From an uncultured Alphaproteobacteria bacterium (GTDB lineage Bacteria; Pseudomonadota; Alphaproteobacteria; HIMB59; GCA-002718135): 64,000 nt of DNA. The DNA is taken from contig CABYXC010000006.1 in NCBI GenBank assembly GCA_902522865.1, positions 1-64,000 on the forward strand, in the 5' to 3' direction. A model generated the notes under the pieces. The model searched no databases and was not told where the DNA came from. It was given only the letters and a program-made list of their open reading frames with translations. Made by a program: the position numbers and the translations under genes. This document shows, piece by piece, positions 50,463 to 55,349 of this stretch; the first letter of the stretch is position 1; the number at the start of each line of letters is the position of its first letter.

Positions 50463-50469
50463 ATAAAAA

Positions 50470-50497
50470 TGACTACCCCGAGCAAGGCCCCAACTGG
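50470..50497 (+). repeat. Degenerate copy of the tRNA-Asn 3' end (possible attachment site)
   Basis: This GC-rich stretch, unusual for the region, aligns with 55275-55301, the 3' end of tRNA-Asn including its CCA, read in the same orientation. By eye 19 of 27 aligned bases match with one inserted A; both begin TG.CT then CCCCG. It lies eight bases after the umuC stop, at the other border of the four-gene island. It may be an old integration scar; chance similarity is possible. Confidence 0.35.
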
Positions 50498-50536
50498 TAA
50501 AAAATCAAGTAGCAAAACATTGATAAAATGAAAATA

Positions 50537-50606
50537 TTGTAATTATACATAATTATAAATGTAATAATACACAATTAATATTGTAATATTACAAAAATAT
50601 TGTAAT
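50537..50606 (+). promoter_or_regulatory. Phased TTGTAAT repeat array upstream of the island operon
   Basis: TTGTAAT at 50537, ATGTAAT at 50559, TTGTAAT at 50581 and TTGTAAT at 50600: spacings of 22, 22 and 19 bases, two helical turns each for the first two. The third copy is part of a perfect 14-base palindrome, TTGTAATATTACAA (50581-50594). The last copy ends nine bases before the ATG at 50616, covering the usual ribosome site. This looks like a multi-site operator for a regulator, probably one encoded by the island. Confidence 0.6.
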
Positions 50607-50615
50607 ATAAGTATT

Positions 50616-50843
50616 ATGATCAATAAAAATGAAGATAAATTTATAAAATTAGCAAATATAAGGGTCAATAAAGCTATAAAATTAATCAGACTAATTGGTA
50701 ACCTATCTAATAAAAGTCATTATTCTTATGATGATAAAAAGGCAAAAAAAATTATCGATGCTCTTCAAAAAGAATTAAATTTAATAAAAAATAAATTTAA
50801 CAATCCCAAAGGCGGAAGGGAAGATACGGATTTTGAATTATAA
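50616..50843 (+). CDS. Island gene 1: small helical protein, unknown
   Basis: A 75-residue basic, helical protein. The core KLANIRVNKAIKLIRLIGNLSNKSHYSYDDKKAKKIIDALQKELNLIKNKF has the look of a conserved domain with a helix, an NLSN turn and a second helix, and the tail KGGREDTDFEL is polar. I recall similar small proteins beside phage-defence and restriction genes, but cannot name a family. Its stop codon directly precedes the next start, and it is the first gene after the repeat array. Confidence 0.6.
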   Translation: MINKNEDKFIKLANIRVNKAIKLIRLIGNLSNKSHYSYDDKKAKKIIDALQKELNLIKNKFNNPKGGREDTDFEL

Positions 50844-51419
50844 ATGAAAAACAAAATAGACATAAGATCATTAAGTAATGAGTATATAATTCTTCTAGCG
50901 CTTTATAAAGAGGCTGGAGAAGATGGTTTGGCAGATGTTGAGGATATTGCTGTATCAGCTGATAAATTAGTTAAGAAAAAGTTTAGATGGAAAAAGTATA
51001 AAAAATATATTGATTTATCATTGGTAAAATCCCTTTTGGCTAATTCAAGAGAGAGAGTAAAAATAGTTAATGGTGGAAAAGATGGATGGTATTTAACAAA
51101 AAAAGGAATTAAAATTATTAACGAGTTAAAAAATAAAATATCATATAGTGGTCAAAGACTAGAAAGGTTAAGTAAATTTGATAAGAATAAAATAATATTT
51201 GAATCCAATAGAGTTTTAACAAGCAATATTTACAAAAAATATTGTATTGATGAAAAAATTACAATCCCCGAAATAAAAAAAATTTTTAAAATTGATAAAT
51301 ACGCATCTGAAATTGAAAAACGTAAAGCAGTAACAAACTTAATCCGATTACTGAAAGACAATGAAGAGATAAATAAATTTTTAAAGACAATTAAAAAAAG
51401 GATATTAAATAATGAATAG
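50844..51419 (+). CDS. Island gene 2: winged-helix protein, unknown
   Basis: A 191-residue protein. Residues about 12-95 look like a winged helix: an N-terminal helix EYIILLALYKEAGEDGLADVEDIA, then a helix SLVKSLLANSRERVKIVNGG and the wing DGWYLTKKGIKIINEL. The second half is basic and helical with no recognised domain. It could be the DNA-binding partner of the ATPase encoded next, which it overlaps by eight bases. No catalytic motif is seen. Confidence 0.6.
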   Translation: MKNKIDIRSLSNEYIILLALYKEAGEDGLADVEDIAVSADKLVKKKFRWKKYKKYIDLSLVKSLLANSRERVKIVNGGKDGWYLTKKGIKIINELKNKISYSGQRLERLSKFDKNKIIFESNRVLTSNIYKKYCIDEKITIPEIKKIFKIDKYASEIEKRKAVTNLIRLLKDNEEINKFLKTIKKRILNNE

Positions 51420-53031
51420 AAAAGTAAAAACTCACGTAGGTAGAGATTTAATTCAAAATGGTGAATATTTTTATCACCCTCCCAAGGCTATATTAGAATA
51501 TATTAAAAATGGATATAATTATAAAAAACCAGCTCTAAATGCAGAGGTAAATGTAAAAATAGATATTACAAATGATGTAATATCAATCTCTGATAATGGA
51601 AGAGGAATGAGTAACTCAGAAATTAACGATCAGTTTCTCGTAATGCATGGTGAAAACCAAGATAGAAAAAAAAATAATCCCACTGATGGTATGTTTGGTA
51701 CTGGGAAATGTGCTTTTTTAGGTATTGCAAATATTTTAGAAGTAAAGACAGCACAAAAAGGTAAATTTAATCATTTTATAATTAGTAGGAAAGAGATTAA
51801 AGGCATTAAAGGAACTGAAGATATACCTGTAACTTCAATAAAAACTGATATTGTTACTGATTTGGAAGATGGTACATTAATTGAATGTAAAGAGCTTAAA
51901 AATCATGTCAAAAAAAATAAAAATTTAGTTGCTCAAATTACCTCCTTAACTAAAAAAATTATTAGAAATAAAAAAGATACAAAAGTATTCATACAAAATA
52001 ATTTAGTTGAAATAAAAGATCCAGAAATTGATTTCTATGAAAAATTTCCAACAGATCAAAATGAAGAATTAAAAAAAATTATTAAAAATACAAACCTTGT
52101 AATTAATGTTTCAAAATCGTTTTTAGATAATGATGAAATGGGTATAAATATATATTCAAAAACTGTTCATTTAGACAAAACTTTAGGAGGATTAGATAAT
52201 AATCAATATTCAAAATTTATCTTTGGTGAAATCAGTATAGATGAACTTAGTAATTATAATGAAGGAGAACTATTCAATAATAACAGGGACGGTCTAAATA
52301 AAAATCATCCTTTGGTAAAAAATTTAATCAATTTTATAGGACAATCTGTCGAAAACATTATAAAAAAAATACAAGATAACCAAAAAGATAAAAAAAAGAA
52401 AGAAGAAGACAAGAAACTTGATAAATTTTCTGAAGAAATAGAAAATAAAATAAATAAATTTTGGAATAATCTTCAAACAAAACCTGAAAATCAATTAGCC
52501 GGTATGAGTAAAGGTAAGGCTAATATAATTTCCAAAATTCAAAGAGATATGCTTGTAAAGGGTGATGAAAAATCAACAACTTTAGAAGAAAATAATGATC
52601 TAAGGCTGTTAACAGATAAGAAAATTAAAGATAAAAATAAAAAAAATAACTATAAAAATAGAAAAGAAGACGAAAATAGTGAAAAGAACTCTAAATCTAT
52701 TAACAAAAATATTAATTCTAAATCACGTTATTCTGTTGTTATTAAAGATTTAGGTAACGAAGAAAATAGATGTTTATGGAGACCGGATAGAAGTACTATT
52801 TATATTAATACTGGTCATGAACAAATTAAAAATTTAAGAATTAAATACGGTTCAGAAGATAAATTTTTTAGATTTTTTATACAAGACCTGGCATTTTCAG
52901 AATTTGTGTATGCTATAGTAAGGCAATATATGGATGAAAAAATAGTTACAAACCCTATGGATGCTTTTTTTTATTATCAGGAATTTATTGATGATTTTTC
53001 AAGACAAAATATTATATTAGATGACGATTAA
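51412..53031 (+). CDS. Island gene 3: GHKL/Hsp90-like ATPase
   Basis: A 539-residue protein with an N-terminal Bergerat-fold ATPase. The N-box is EYIKN (Glu29, Asn33), the G1 box is SDNGRGM (Asp61, Gly63, Gly65), and the G2 loop is GMFGTGK (93-99), so catalysis and lid residues are intact. The middle (about 130-330) resembles the transducer part of GyrB/MutL-type proteins. A lysine-rich linker (about 395-435) leads to a C-terminal domain with NRCLWRPDRSTIYINTGHEQ. It is not HtpG, MutL, GyrB or a histidine kinase. It overlaps both neighbours by 8 and 11 bases. Confidence 0.82.
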   Translation: MNRKVKTHVGRDLIQNGEYFYHPPKAILEYIKNGYNYKKPALNAEVNVKIDITNDVISISDNGRGMSNSEINDQFLVMHGENQDRKKNNPTDGMFGTGKCAFLGIANILEVKTAQKGKFNHFIISRKEIKGIKGTEDIPVTSIKTDIVTDLEDGTLIECKELKNHVKKNKNLVAQITSLTKKIIRNKKDTKVFIQNNLVEIKDPEIDFYEKFPTDQNEELKKIIKNTNLVINVSKSFLDNDEMGINIYSKTVHLDKTLGGLDNNQYSKFIFGEISIDELSNYNEGELFNNNRDGLNKNHPLVKNLINFIGQSVENIIKKIQDNQKDKKKKEEDKKLDKFSEEIENKINKFWNNLQTKPENQLAGMSKGKANIISKIQRDMLVKGDEKSTTLEENNDLRLLTDKKIKDKNKKNNYKNRKEDENSEKNSKSINKNINSKSRYSVVIKDLGNEENRCLWRPDRSTIYINTGHEQIKNLRIKYGSEDKFFRFFIQDLAFSEFVYAIVRQYMDEKIVTNPMDAFFYYQEFIDDFSRQNIILDDD

Positions 53032-55273
53032 AGAACACGATTTAATCATTCCATCATTAAAAATTATATATGAAAATAAAAATGGAATTACAACTTCTGA
53101 TCTTTTAGAACTATTGAGACAAAATCTTAAACCAACTGGAGAAGATTTAAAGATATTAGAAAATAGAAATGATGATAAATTTTCACAAAAAGTTAGAAAC
53201 TTAAAGTCTCACAAAACTCTAGAAAATTTAGGATATGCTAGATTTCATAACAACTGCTTTTTTATTACTGATAAGGGTAAAGCTGAACTTTTAAATAGTG
53301 AATTAAATTTCAGTAACAATATTAATATTTATAAAGAAAATATAATTCTTTTTTCTCTTATAAGTGAAAATGATTTGCCAATAAGAATTAAAAATTTTGC
53401 AGATGAAAATAATATTAAATATGTTTTTGAATTACTAATATTTTACAAAGAAAATAATATGATGTCTATTCCCGCATTAGGGAAAGGAACAATCAATTTA
53501 TTAATTAATTTTTTTAAAGTTAATAAATTAAACACTTCAGAAATTTATCAGGAATTAAAATTAAACGATCCCTATAAATTTTTGACTAGTAAATCTGATA
53601 GCATACTATTAGATAATTTAACTTTATTTACTTCCATTTATCAATATCAATTTCCTGCAAGAATAGAAAATTTTTGTAATGAATTAAATATTACATTTGT
53701 ATACGAATTATTTATTTTAATAAAATCAACAAATAAAAATAAACTTCCTAATATCGGTAGAGGTTCATTGCAAATAATAGAGAAATTTTTTTTAGAAAAA
53801 AATCTCAATGATATAGAAATATATAAAAACTTAATTTCTATTGATGTGATTCAATTCATGAAAGATCACAATGACGAAATTAATAAATTTGAATTATCTT
53901 TAAATTTAAAAACAAATTATATTGATGAATTTTTTTTCAAAAATATTGAAAATTCAGGATCAAAAGATAAAATAAGAGAAATAAAAATCGTTTGTTCTAG
54001 ATATGGTCTTAGAGGTCACAAAAAACTTACACTGCAAGCAATTGGTGAATTTTACAATATTTCAAGAGAAAGAATCAGGCAAATTCAAAGTAAGTCAATA
54101 TCAAGAATAAAAAAAACACCACAACTTAAATCATTATTAGAAATTTTTTATAAAAAAATTGAATCTTTTAATTTTATTACTTTAGATGAATTACAAAAAA
54201 AAAATTTATTAAAGTATGATTTTAACTATGTATATTTGAACGAATTTCATAATGATATTTCTTTAAATAATGAAAAATCTTTTTTGGTGGATAAATTAGA
54301 AGATAAATATTTTTATTTTAAAAATAAAAAATTTTACAGTGATGCACAAAAGATAATTTTATTTATTAAAAGAACTGATGGTCTAAATAAACAATTTACA
54401 TCGTTTGATGTATTACTAAAAAAATATAAAGATTTCTTTGCAAAAGTTAATATTATTTATTTTTTAGAACAATTTGATGATCTATTAATTGATGTGCAAA
54501 AAAAAGTAGTTTTTTATTATAAATCACATCATTTTATTAGGCATAATATCTCTAAAATTAAAAATATAATTAATGATAAATTTTCTATCAATGATTTATA
54601 TTCTCAAATAAATAGACATTATAGAAGGCATATACCCTCAAAAAAAATTCTAATAGAATATTTGCAAAAAGGTGATTATAATTTTGATGATAATTATTTA
54701 TATTTTGATAATATTGAAACTGAAAAATTATCAAAATTAGAACAAAATTTAGTAAATTATATTATTAATCATAATAATCGTATGTTTGTTGAAGACATCT
54801 CAGAATTTGCAATTGAATGTGATTATGAATTGAATAGTTCTATATTAGTTTATCTTAAGAATAATCCTCTTTTTAAAAATATTGCTAAAAATATATTTAC
54901 TTTAGCAAATGTTTATCTATCTCCATTTCAAATTATTGAGTTTCAAAACCAAAGGGATGATTTAAATAAAAAATATAAAAGCAACTATGAAACTTCTTGG
55001 GCGGATAAAAAATTTAAAGTAATTTTACAGCCAGCTCCTTATACTATATCATTTTGCAAATTTTTTATAAAATCTTCAATTTTAGACATTATTGGATCAA
55101 ATAGCGAATTTGAATGTATAAATTTAAGAGACGTTATGGTTTATACAACTAACAATACTATTTATTCTAATAGCAATTTTTTTACTTCAATACGAGTTAG
55201 AAGAGGTGATAAAGTTGAGTTCATTTTTGACTTAGAAAACAAATTTGTTTCAATAGACAAAATCACAAATTAA
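53021..55273 (+). CDS. Island gene 4: winged helix, alpha-CTD-like repeats and sigma-4-like HTH
   Basis: A 750-residue protein, very AT-rich. Residues 1-95 resemble an Mrr-N-type winged helix (TTSDLLELL..., then YARFHNNCFFITDKGKAELL). Two repeats near 115-165 and 205-258 have the pattern of the RNA polymerase alpha C-terminal domain (IPALGKGTINLLINFF and LPNIGRGSLQIIEKFF). Residues about 336-366 (LQAIGEFYNISRERIRQIQ) match the sigma region 4 HTH that reads -35 elements. Residues 370-750 are unknown. Its stop codon is one base from the CCA end of tRNA-Asn. Confidence 0.7.
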   Translation: MTIKEHDLIIPSLKIIYENKNGITTSDLLELLRQNLKPTGEDLKILENRNDDKFSQKVRNLKSHKTLENLGYARFHNNCFFITDKGKAELLNSELNFSNNINIYKENIILFSLISENDLPIRIKNFADENNIKYVFELLIFYKENNMMSIPALGKGTINLLINFFKVNKLNTSEIYQELKLNDPYKFLTSKSDSILLDNLTLFTSIYQYQFPARIENFCNELNITFVYELFILIKSTNKNKLPNIGRGSLQIIEKFFLEKNLNDIEIYKNLISIDVIQFMKDHNDEINKFELSLNLKTNYIDEFFFKNIENSGSKDKIREIKIVCSRYGLRGHKKLTLQAIGEFYNISRERIRQIQSKSISRIKKTPQLKSLLEIFYKKIESFNFITLDELQKKNLLKYDFNYVYLNEFHNDISLNNEKSFLVDKLEDKYFYFKNKKFYSDAQKIILFIKRTDGLNKQFTSFDVLLKKYKDFFAKVNIIYFLEQFDDLLIDVQKKVVFYYKSHHFIRHNISKIKNIINDKFSINDLYSQINRHYRRHIPSKKILIEYLQKGDYNFDDNYLYFDNIETEKLSKLEQNLVNYIINHNNRMFVEDISEFAIECDYELNSSILVYLKNNPLFKNIAKNIFTLANVYLSPFQIIEFQNQRDDLNKKYKSNYETSWADKKFKVILQPAPYTISFCKFFIKSSILDIIGSNSEFECINLRDVMVYTTNNTIYSNSNFFTSIRVRRGDKVEFIFDLENKFVSIDKITN

Positions 55274-55274
55274 T

Positions 55275-55349
55275 TGGCTCCCCGGGCCGGGCTCGAACCA
55301 GCGACCGATCGGTTAACAGCCGATTGCTCTACCACTGAGCTACCGAGGA
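55275..55349 (-). tRNA. tRNA-Asn (GTT)
   Basis: On the minus strand: acceptor TCCTCGG with CCGGGGA, D arm GCTCAGTGGTAGAGC, anticodon arm ATCGGCTGTTAACCGAT with anticodon GTT, T arm CTGGTTCGAGCCCGG, then discriminator G and encoded CCA at 55277-55275. Length 75. Its 3' end borders the island. Confidence 0.97.

Follow-up and report, generated by a model that had tools for sequence, protein, structure and literature searches.

Downstream of umuD and umuC, the genome of an uncultured marine alphaproteobacterium of the HIMB59 lineage carries a short non-coding gap followed by four head-to-tail open reading frames (ORFs; genes 1 to 4), and this gap holds a regularly spaced repeat, (T/A)TGTAAT. Which protein reads the repeat, and with what effect on the four genes, is the question addressed here. 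The analysis covered a window of 64,000 nucleotides (positions 1 to 64,000 of contig CABYXC010000006.1, assembly GCA_902522865.1), whose numbering is used throughout. Our best explanation, which we regard as rather probable, is that the array is a putative autoregulatory operator of a four-gene, mobile, defence-like operon, with the gene-1 protein as its likely binder. A conserved operator tied to the small-protein family of gene 1 is better supported than the window's own array.

The four repeat copies (TTGTAAT at 50537-50543, ATGTAAT at 50559-50565, and TTGTAAT at both 50581-50587 and 50600-50606) follow one another at steps of 22, 22, and 19 base pairs (bp), and the first three form the left halves of 14-bp palindromes of the type WTGTAATWWTACAW, one perfect and two imperfect. 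The positions, the even spacing of the first three copies, and the perfect palindrome reported in the original prediction were therefore confirmed, as was its statement that the array occupies the single non-coding space on the upstream side of the island formed by the four genes. The features of the gap are listed below.

50463 to 50615 (153 bp), unstranded: non-coding gap between umuC and gene 1, taken from the ORF list; left part of the island, holding the array.
50533 to 50609, unstranded: phased array, with a lag-22 identity of 0.70 (z 4.3) and a lag-19 z of 2.9; also readable in 11-bp units.
50537 to 50550, unstranded: site 1, TTGTAATTATACAT, imperfect palindrome.
50559 to 50572, unstranded: site 2, ATGTAATAATACAC, imperfect palindrome.
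50581 to 50594, unstranded: site 3, TTGTAATATTACAA, perfect 14-bp palindrome.
50600 to 50613, unstranded: site 4, TTGTAATATAAGTA, half-site immediately 5' of the gene-1 start codon.

Among 20,000 dinucleotide shuffles of positions 50495-50615, four copies of the named motif appeared five times and an evenly spaced triple twice; two 22-bp pairs and two palindromes never appeared. The z at lag 22 was unmatched at any lag from 5 to 40 across 3000 shuffles; lag 11 had no significance of its own in the window array. Equal phasing in other AT-rich gaps, which would speak against a dedicated array, was not seen when 18 gaps of the window were compared, the umuC–gene 1 gap ranking highest (identity 0.66; runner-up 0.60). 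Exact copies of WTGTAATWWTACAW occur at two places in the 1.41-Mb assembly, both in this gap, with a third site one mismatch off, and other genomes of the genus hold a few scattered copies each of this type of pattern. Two successive 22-bp pairs were found in this genome only, against none in 101 other genomes of the genus. In G049, a relative lacking the island, ATGTAAT stands three times at 11-bp steps (G049:C1:339056-339084).

Upstream of the gene-1 family we found a conserved, odd-centred palindrome, approximately TACATTTnnnAAATGTA (consensus TAYATWTnnnAWATRTA), and enumeration of gapped palindromic words returned nested arms around one odd centre, CGTACATTTnnnAAATGTACG. The comparison used 98 upstream regions with enough clean bases, 89 after removal of near-duplicates, genes close to contig ends being omitted. 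Inverted repeats were enriched in the 130-bp regions (21 of 98 at p<0.05, 13 of 98 at p<0.01), ACAT-N7-ATGT was present in 16 of 89 regions with 0.3 expected, and the density of the palindrome upstream of gene 1 was about 92-fold that in the rest of the loci. A score of at least 12 with a position weight matrix (PWM), trained on the same loci, was reached by 54 of 97 gene-1 upstream regions and by none of 332 control upstream regions from those loci. For ACAT-N7-ATGT the corresponding counts were 18/97 and 1/332, and 8 of 150 sampled controls reached p<0.05 by shuffling, which is about chance. The expectation that the repeats would precede homologous operons was thus borne out for the palindromic architecture, which is kept, and failed for the literal word: WTGTAAT occurs at least once within 150 bp upstream of just 12 of 97 homologues.

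The operator is shared by operons of different kinds. The commonest one behind gene-1 homologues is PDC-M33A/B/C, a phage-defence candidate in PADLOC whose defence role is a candidate annotation, and the operon of the window is of a different type. A PWM trained on the PDC-M33 class located sites at p<0.05 in 9/12, 5/8, 14/24, and 1/3 regions of the other classes, the single region in the last being this window; in the reverse test, a PWM from the other classes located sites in 30 of 42 PDC-M33 regions. This cross-class validation is not wholly independent, since the PWM started from a consensus of all loci. Split counts of ACAT-N7-ATGT, which do not depend on the PWM, gave 10 of 42 regions (0.32 expected) and 6 of 47 (0.22 expected).

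Operator sites, counted with a PWM derived from these very loci, lie 9, 11, 20, and 22 bp apart in 12, 36, 12, and 8 pairs, respectively, where at most 0.1 of each was expected, and the autocorrelation of the family with the window left out peaks at lags 9, 11, 20, 22, 31, and 33. These spacings indicate that the 22-bp phase of the window is a family trait. The original picture of a phased autoregulatory array in a mobile cassette is partly supported, by tandem palindromes spaced one or two turns of the helix in gene-1 operons elsewhere and by an island at a tRNA-Asn gene (see below). A promoter-like pair was obtained in 9 of 54 site-bearing loci, at mixed distances from the operator, which does not demonstrate promoter occlusion.

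To which protein does the operator belong? Gene 1 encodes the sole protein common to all operon classes with the operator, and it stands first in the window operon with the array immediately upstream. One N-terminal column of the gene-1 protein (D, S, E, or N versus K or R) tracks the operator flank GT...AC, with the flank in 10 of 13 loci against 3 of 46 (p 1e-6). The co-variation holds within the PDC-M33 class (3/3 versus 0/28, p 2e-4) and outside it (7/10 versus 3/18, p 0.011); sites were chosen by their core alone, and three loci with neither residue type were left out of the Fisher tests. We infer from these sequence comparisons that the gene-1 protein, rather than another protein, probably binds the array. 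The products of genes 2 and 4 had been proposed as the likely binders; this proposal lost support because the operator accompanies gene 1 also in operon types that lack both genes.

A number of observations weigh against this reading and are gathered here, beginning with the best window match to the family operator.

50583 to 50603, unstranded: best match to the family operator, GTAATATTACAAAAATATTGT; p 0.03 under the PWM trained on the PDC-M33 class and 0.09 under one derived from all other loci.

This fit is marginal under either matrix, and AT-rich DNA weakens the test. Most half-sites of the window read TTGTA and not ATGTA, and neither L115, the closest complete four-gene operon, nor L130, both in the operon class of the window, has a significant operator site. 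Considering the marginal fit, the weak test, and the two loci without a site, we term the array a diverged version; its sequence is suggestive of a local variant of the family operator. The co-varying column is the best of about 70 in sequences that are related and not independent, and the gene-1 protein of the window (N5) is itself an exception to the residue–flank rule. Its modelled hairpin matches no known DNA-binding fold. In shuffles with no motif specified, some exact 6-mer was present in four copies in 862 of 2000 cases and a 14-bp palindrome in 133 of 2000, and isolated 22-bp pairs are frequent in the genus, the other 101 genomes holding 42 of them. Since repeated 6-mers and a palindrome alone are unremarkable in AT-rich DNA, the distinctive feature is the phasing. 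Finally, promoter-like sites in the gap are at chance level (2 found, 2.7 expected), so the promoter of the island could not be located.

The four genes and their gap form a tRNA-associated genomic island, as indicated by insertion at the 3' end of the tRNA gene and by the empty site in relatives. It spans approximately 50463-55272 and has a G+C content of 22.3%, against 28.9% for the rest of the window. The adjoining features are as follows.

55275 to 55349, minus strand: intact tRNA-Asn (gtt), with its 3' end directly against the island; the site is empty in relatives.
50467 to 50494, minus strand: att-like remnant that repeats the tRNA-Asn 3' end in degenerate form, with identity in 20 of 28 aligned columns; partner at 55272-55298.

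Close relatives, with umuC 97-99% identical, pass from the umuC stop over a few bases into tRNA-Asn and have no such gap sequence, which places the island against the 3' end of the tRNA gene. The site was inspected in 79 other umuC-bearing genomes, of 102 genus genomes searched: the tRNA lies at most 45 bp away in 58, and another insert or spacer of 0.38-2.1 kb is present in 21. None of the 79 carries the four-gene island and array, from which it follows that the array arrived together with the island. Of 2000 shuffles, 8 scored as high as the att-like remnant, as did 3 among 1728 other window stretches, and the repeat is degenerate.

The umuC/tRNA-Asn junction is an integration hotspot at which the inserts differ (for example L040, L043, L044, L219, L226, L227, and L256); three inserts, read from their translations, each hold a gene of about 1.25 kb for an MFS-type transporter. 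In L213 (G093) tRNA-Asn directly follows umuC and the next gene lies 2.66 kb off instead of 0.33 kb, which is another insert, downstream of the tRNA pair.

The genes of the island are given below with their predicted properties.

50616 to 50843, plus strand: gene 1, 75 amino acids (aa), a small helical protein and candidate autoregulator; AlphaFold2 two-helix hairpin, mean predicted local distance difference test (pLDDT) 89.6.
50844 to 51419, plus strand: gene 2, 191 aa, perhaps with a winged-helix N-terminus; homologues in L115, L130, and L135.
51412 to 53031, plus strand: gene 3, 539 aa, a GHKL-type ATPase (PF13589, E 1.7e-13).
53021 to 55273, plus strand: gene 4, 750 aa, with a sigma-70 region-4 helix-turn-helix (PF04545, E 5e-9) and alpha-CTD-like domains (PF03118 slightly below the cut-off).

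Genes 1 and 2 matched no family at a useful score; gene 1 had only a weak match to the phage family phrog_3898, of unknown function, and none in PADLOC. No integrase, excisionase, or replication family was matched by any of the four. The label "iteron" in the original prediction was accordingly dropped, as no replication gene was found and the sites are palindromic.

All four genes have counterparts in a complete operon of G680 and G758, two further alphaproteobacterial genomes, where gene 3 has full-length homologues at 31% identity; their stretches, L115 and L116, are apparently identical. The Pelagibacteraceae contigs L130 and L135 contain genes 1 and 2 plus another gene, which in L130 is weakly GHKL by Pfam. 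Single-protein pattern searches disclosed no relatives of gene 3 in genome contigs and none of gene 3 or gene 4 in viral contigs; the plasmid search found no relatives of gene 4 or gene 2, and gene 4 searched against the phylum returned mainly apparent housekeeping sigma factors. The N-terminus of gene 4 (window 53021-53215) is perhaps a mobile module, judging from its matches: residues 1-65 share 58.5% identity with part of Monoglobales phage CHVD 5762, and residues 5-78 share 49% with an open frame of 119 aa in G492. This N-terminal stretch is missing in L115.

Homologues of gene 1 were found on plasmids, at 80 retained loci in genomes from several phyla, and in 10 viral contigs. Pelagibacteraceae single-cell contigs are among the carriers, so that the host of the window may belong to the SAR11 group; within the order of the window the gene is rare (3 of 162 genomes). 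Several plasmid copies adjoin methylase, Vsr, MutH-like, or restriction genes. The homologues usually lie directly 5' of a large gene, and when that next gene was clustered, the PDC-M33A kind had 47 members and the gene-2 kind 4, with proteins of about 816 aa (13 members) and about 614 aa (8 members) among the remaining clusters. By motif boxes in their consensus many of these downstream genes appear GHKL-like, tentatively so for the 816-aa class, and Pfam assigned HATPase_c_3 to 5 and HATPase_c to 3 of 36 downstream proteins. The alignments comprise 78 gene-1 sequences (A5; without near-duplicates, some truncated or uncertain starts, and plasmid and unnamed-genome copies) and 36 of the 78 next-gene proteins (A6). 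Compared with the PDB, the gene-1 profile matched no chain except three designed or scaffold proteins (E 0.2-0.5), and a second comparison aligned one chain with no match. Clustering of ORFs upstream of gene 1, a search for a separate regulator, gave a top cluster in 27 of 88 loci that consists apparently of spurious GC-rich frames. No publications on gene 1, DUF6339, or PDC-M33 were found in a search whose reach did not extend to most subscription papers and preprints, and the family is apparently undescribed.

Some family members stand in other settings. In two viral contigs (L118 2712-3521 and L120 3252-4100) the gene-1 domain forms the in-frame terminal part of a longer ORF that bears a HELAHS or HELSHS motif; these ORFs are metalloprotease-like and lie among phage-like genes, with a weak Astacin match in L120 only, and an internal start for the gene-1 domain is possible. 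Protease–repressor pairs are known, and a protease tied to a possible repressor recalls them. In L171 no ATPase gene comes after the gene-1 homologue, which has a good operator; its place is taken by ORFs that, read from translations, look like an IS21-type istA/istB pair, as if the operon had been interrupted. The genus relative G081 (L018) has a different operon, in which a sigma-factor-like 278-aa ORF, a 125-aa ORF, and a GHKL-like ORF precede the beginning of another ORF; it resembles an MZA-type locus.

MZA was considered for the window as well: gene 4 shares a sigma region-4 stretch with MzaA and gene 3 a short GHKL stretch with MzaB. The scores, however, are far under the curated cut-offs (41.7 of 800 for MzaA and 12.8 of 850 for MzaB). 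The other components of Mza systems are Z1 and AIPR proteins, which are absent from the four-gene island. Membership was rejected on the two scores and the presence of four genes only.

The functionally nearest known system to gene 1 is RptR (RMS-proximal transcriptional regulator), which belongs to a Type I restriction defence island. RptR is an all-helical protein of 79 aa encoded by the first gene of its operon, and it represses its own promoter via tandem repeats containing a palindrome near the start codon (PMC12255303). Both are thus small helical first-gene proteins of defence or defence-like operons with tandem palindromic repeats near the start. RptR as described there has four helices and binds the 6-bp TAGCTA in 9-bp repeats (PMC12255303), whereas gene 1 has two modelled helices, a family palindrome of about 17-21 bp, and GHKL-ATPase-like operons. 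The gap contains no TAGCTA, TAGATA, TATCTA, or TATATA, and the PDB matches of gene 1 included no RptR-like chain. We note a similar arrangement, compared by description, and claim no membership. CapK/CapS head diverse immune operons and act as a dimeric repressor on wide and narrow palindromes (PMC13373217); CapS is a STAS and winged-helix protein with a partner kinase, unlike the lone small helical protein of gene 1. Further literature for comparison is PMC12137116 and PMC12839542.

Four other explanations of the array were weighed. The main rival binder is the gene-2 product, or alternatively that of gene 4, acting on an operator of the same operon. The helix-helix-helix-strand-strand order predicted for gene 2 is winged-helix-like, albeit in a poor model (pLDDT 41), gene 2 is present in class D operons, the window array departs from the family motif, and gene 4 has the domains of a DNA-binding protein. 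Nevertheless, other operator-bearing classes lack any gene of the gene-2 cluster, and L115 has genes 2 and 4 without the array, which makes this reading unlikely. A host or other trans regulator, or a nucleoid protein silencing AT-rich foreign DNA, would suit the high AT content of the island and gap and the plain AT-rich palindromes; the exact double palindromes, however, occur nowhere else in the genome and the absence of the array from all 79 relatives disfavours a host regulator, so that we consider such a binder quite improbable.

It is decidedly improbable that the repeats are tandem promoter elements or an AT-rich chance feature with no dedicated binder. The 22-bp steps do put TTGTAA and TGTAAT 17 bp apart, and the ordinary motif-free counts and frequent single pairs given above are what chance would produce, yet the phasing exceeds 3000 shuffles and the operator architecture is common to the gene-1 family. 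Reading the phase as a -35/-10 spacing was rejected on the chance number of promoter-like sites. Least probable of all is an array of arm sites for a mobilising integrase or excisionase. It would explain why the array lies about 40 bp inside the left end, beside the degenerate tRNA-Asn repeat, but gene-1 operons elsewhere have comparable arrays directly 5' of gene 1, and this reading was rejected for want of matching genes among the four.

Under the preferred explanation, autoregulation by the gene-1 protein, the array would be the operator region of the island's single promoter. The gene-1 product, most likely as a dimer, would occupy the phased palindromes along a single DNA face in a cooperative manner, just 5' of its own start, and would repress, or at least autoregulate, the four-gene operon until a signal, perhaps infection, relieves it. 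Repression is presumed here in preference to activation, and the operon and its island are presumably antiviral. It is also possible, though we hold this tentatively, that gene 1 defines a new family of portable autoregulators that have two helices and bind DNA; such a family would range over several bacterial phyla, head at least four kinds of GHKL-ATPase-like defence operon, and act via a conserved palindrome arrayed in helical phase. In the same tentative reading, the viral HELxH fusions would hint at a protease switch or a phage countermeasure.

The gene-1 operators bear on the question of how defence operons stay quiet until infection, for which the known regulators (WYL proteins, CapK/CapS, C proteins, and RptR) cover only some systems. 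If the explanation is true, a shared small regulator with a recognisable operator would offer a handle on the control of several GHKL-type operons; such operons could be found by their operator, and their derepression in infection would be directly testable by reporters.
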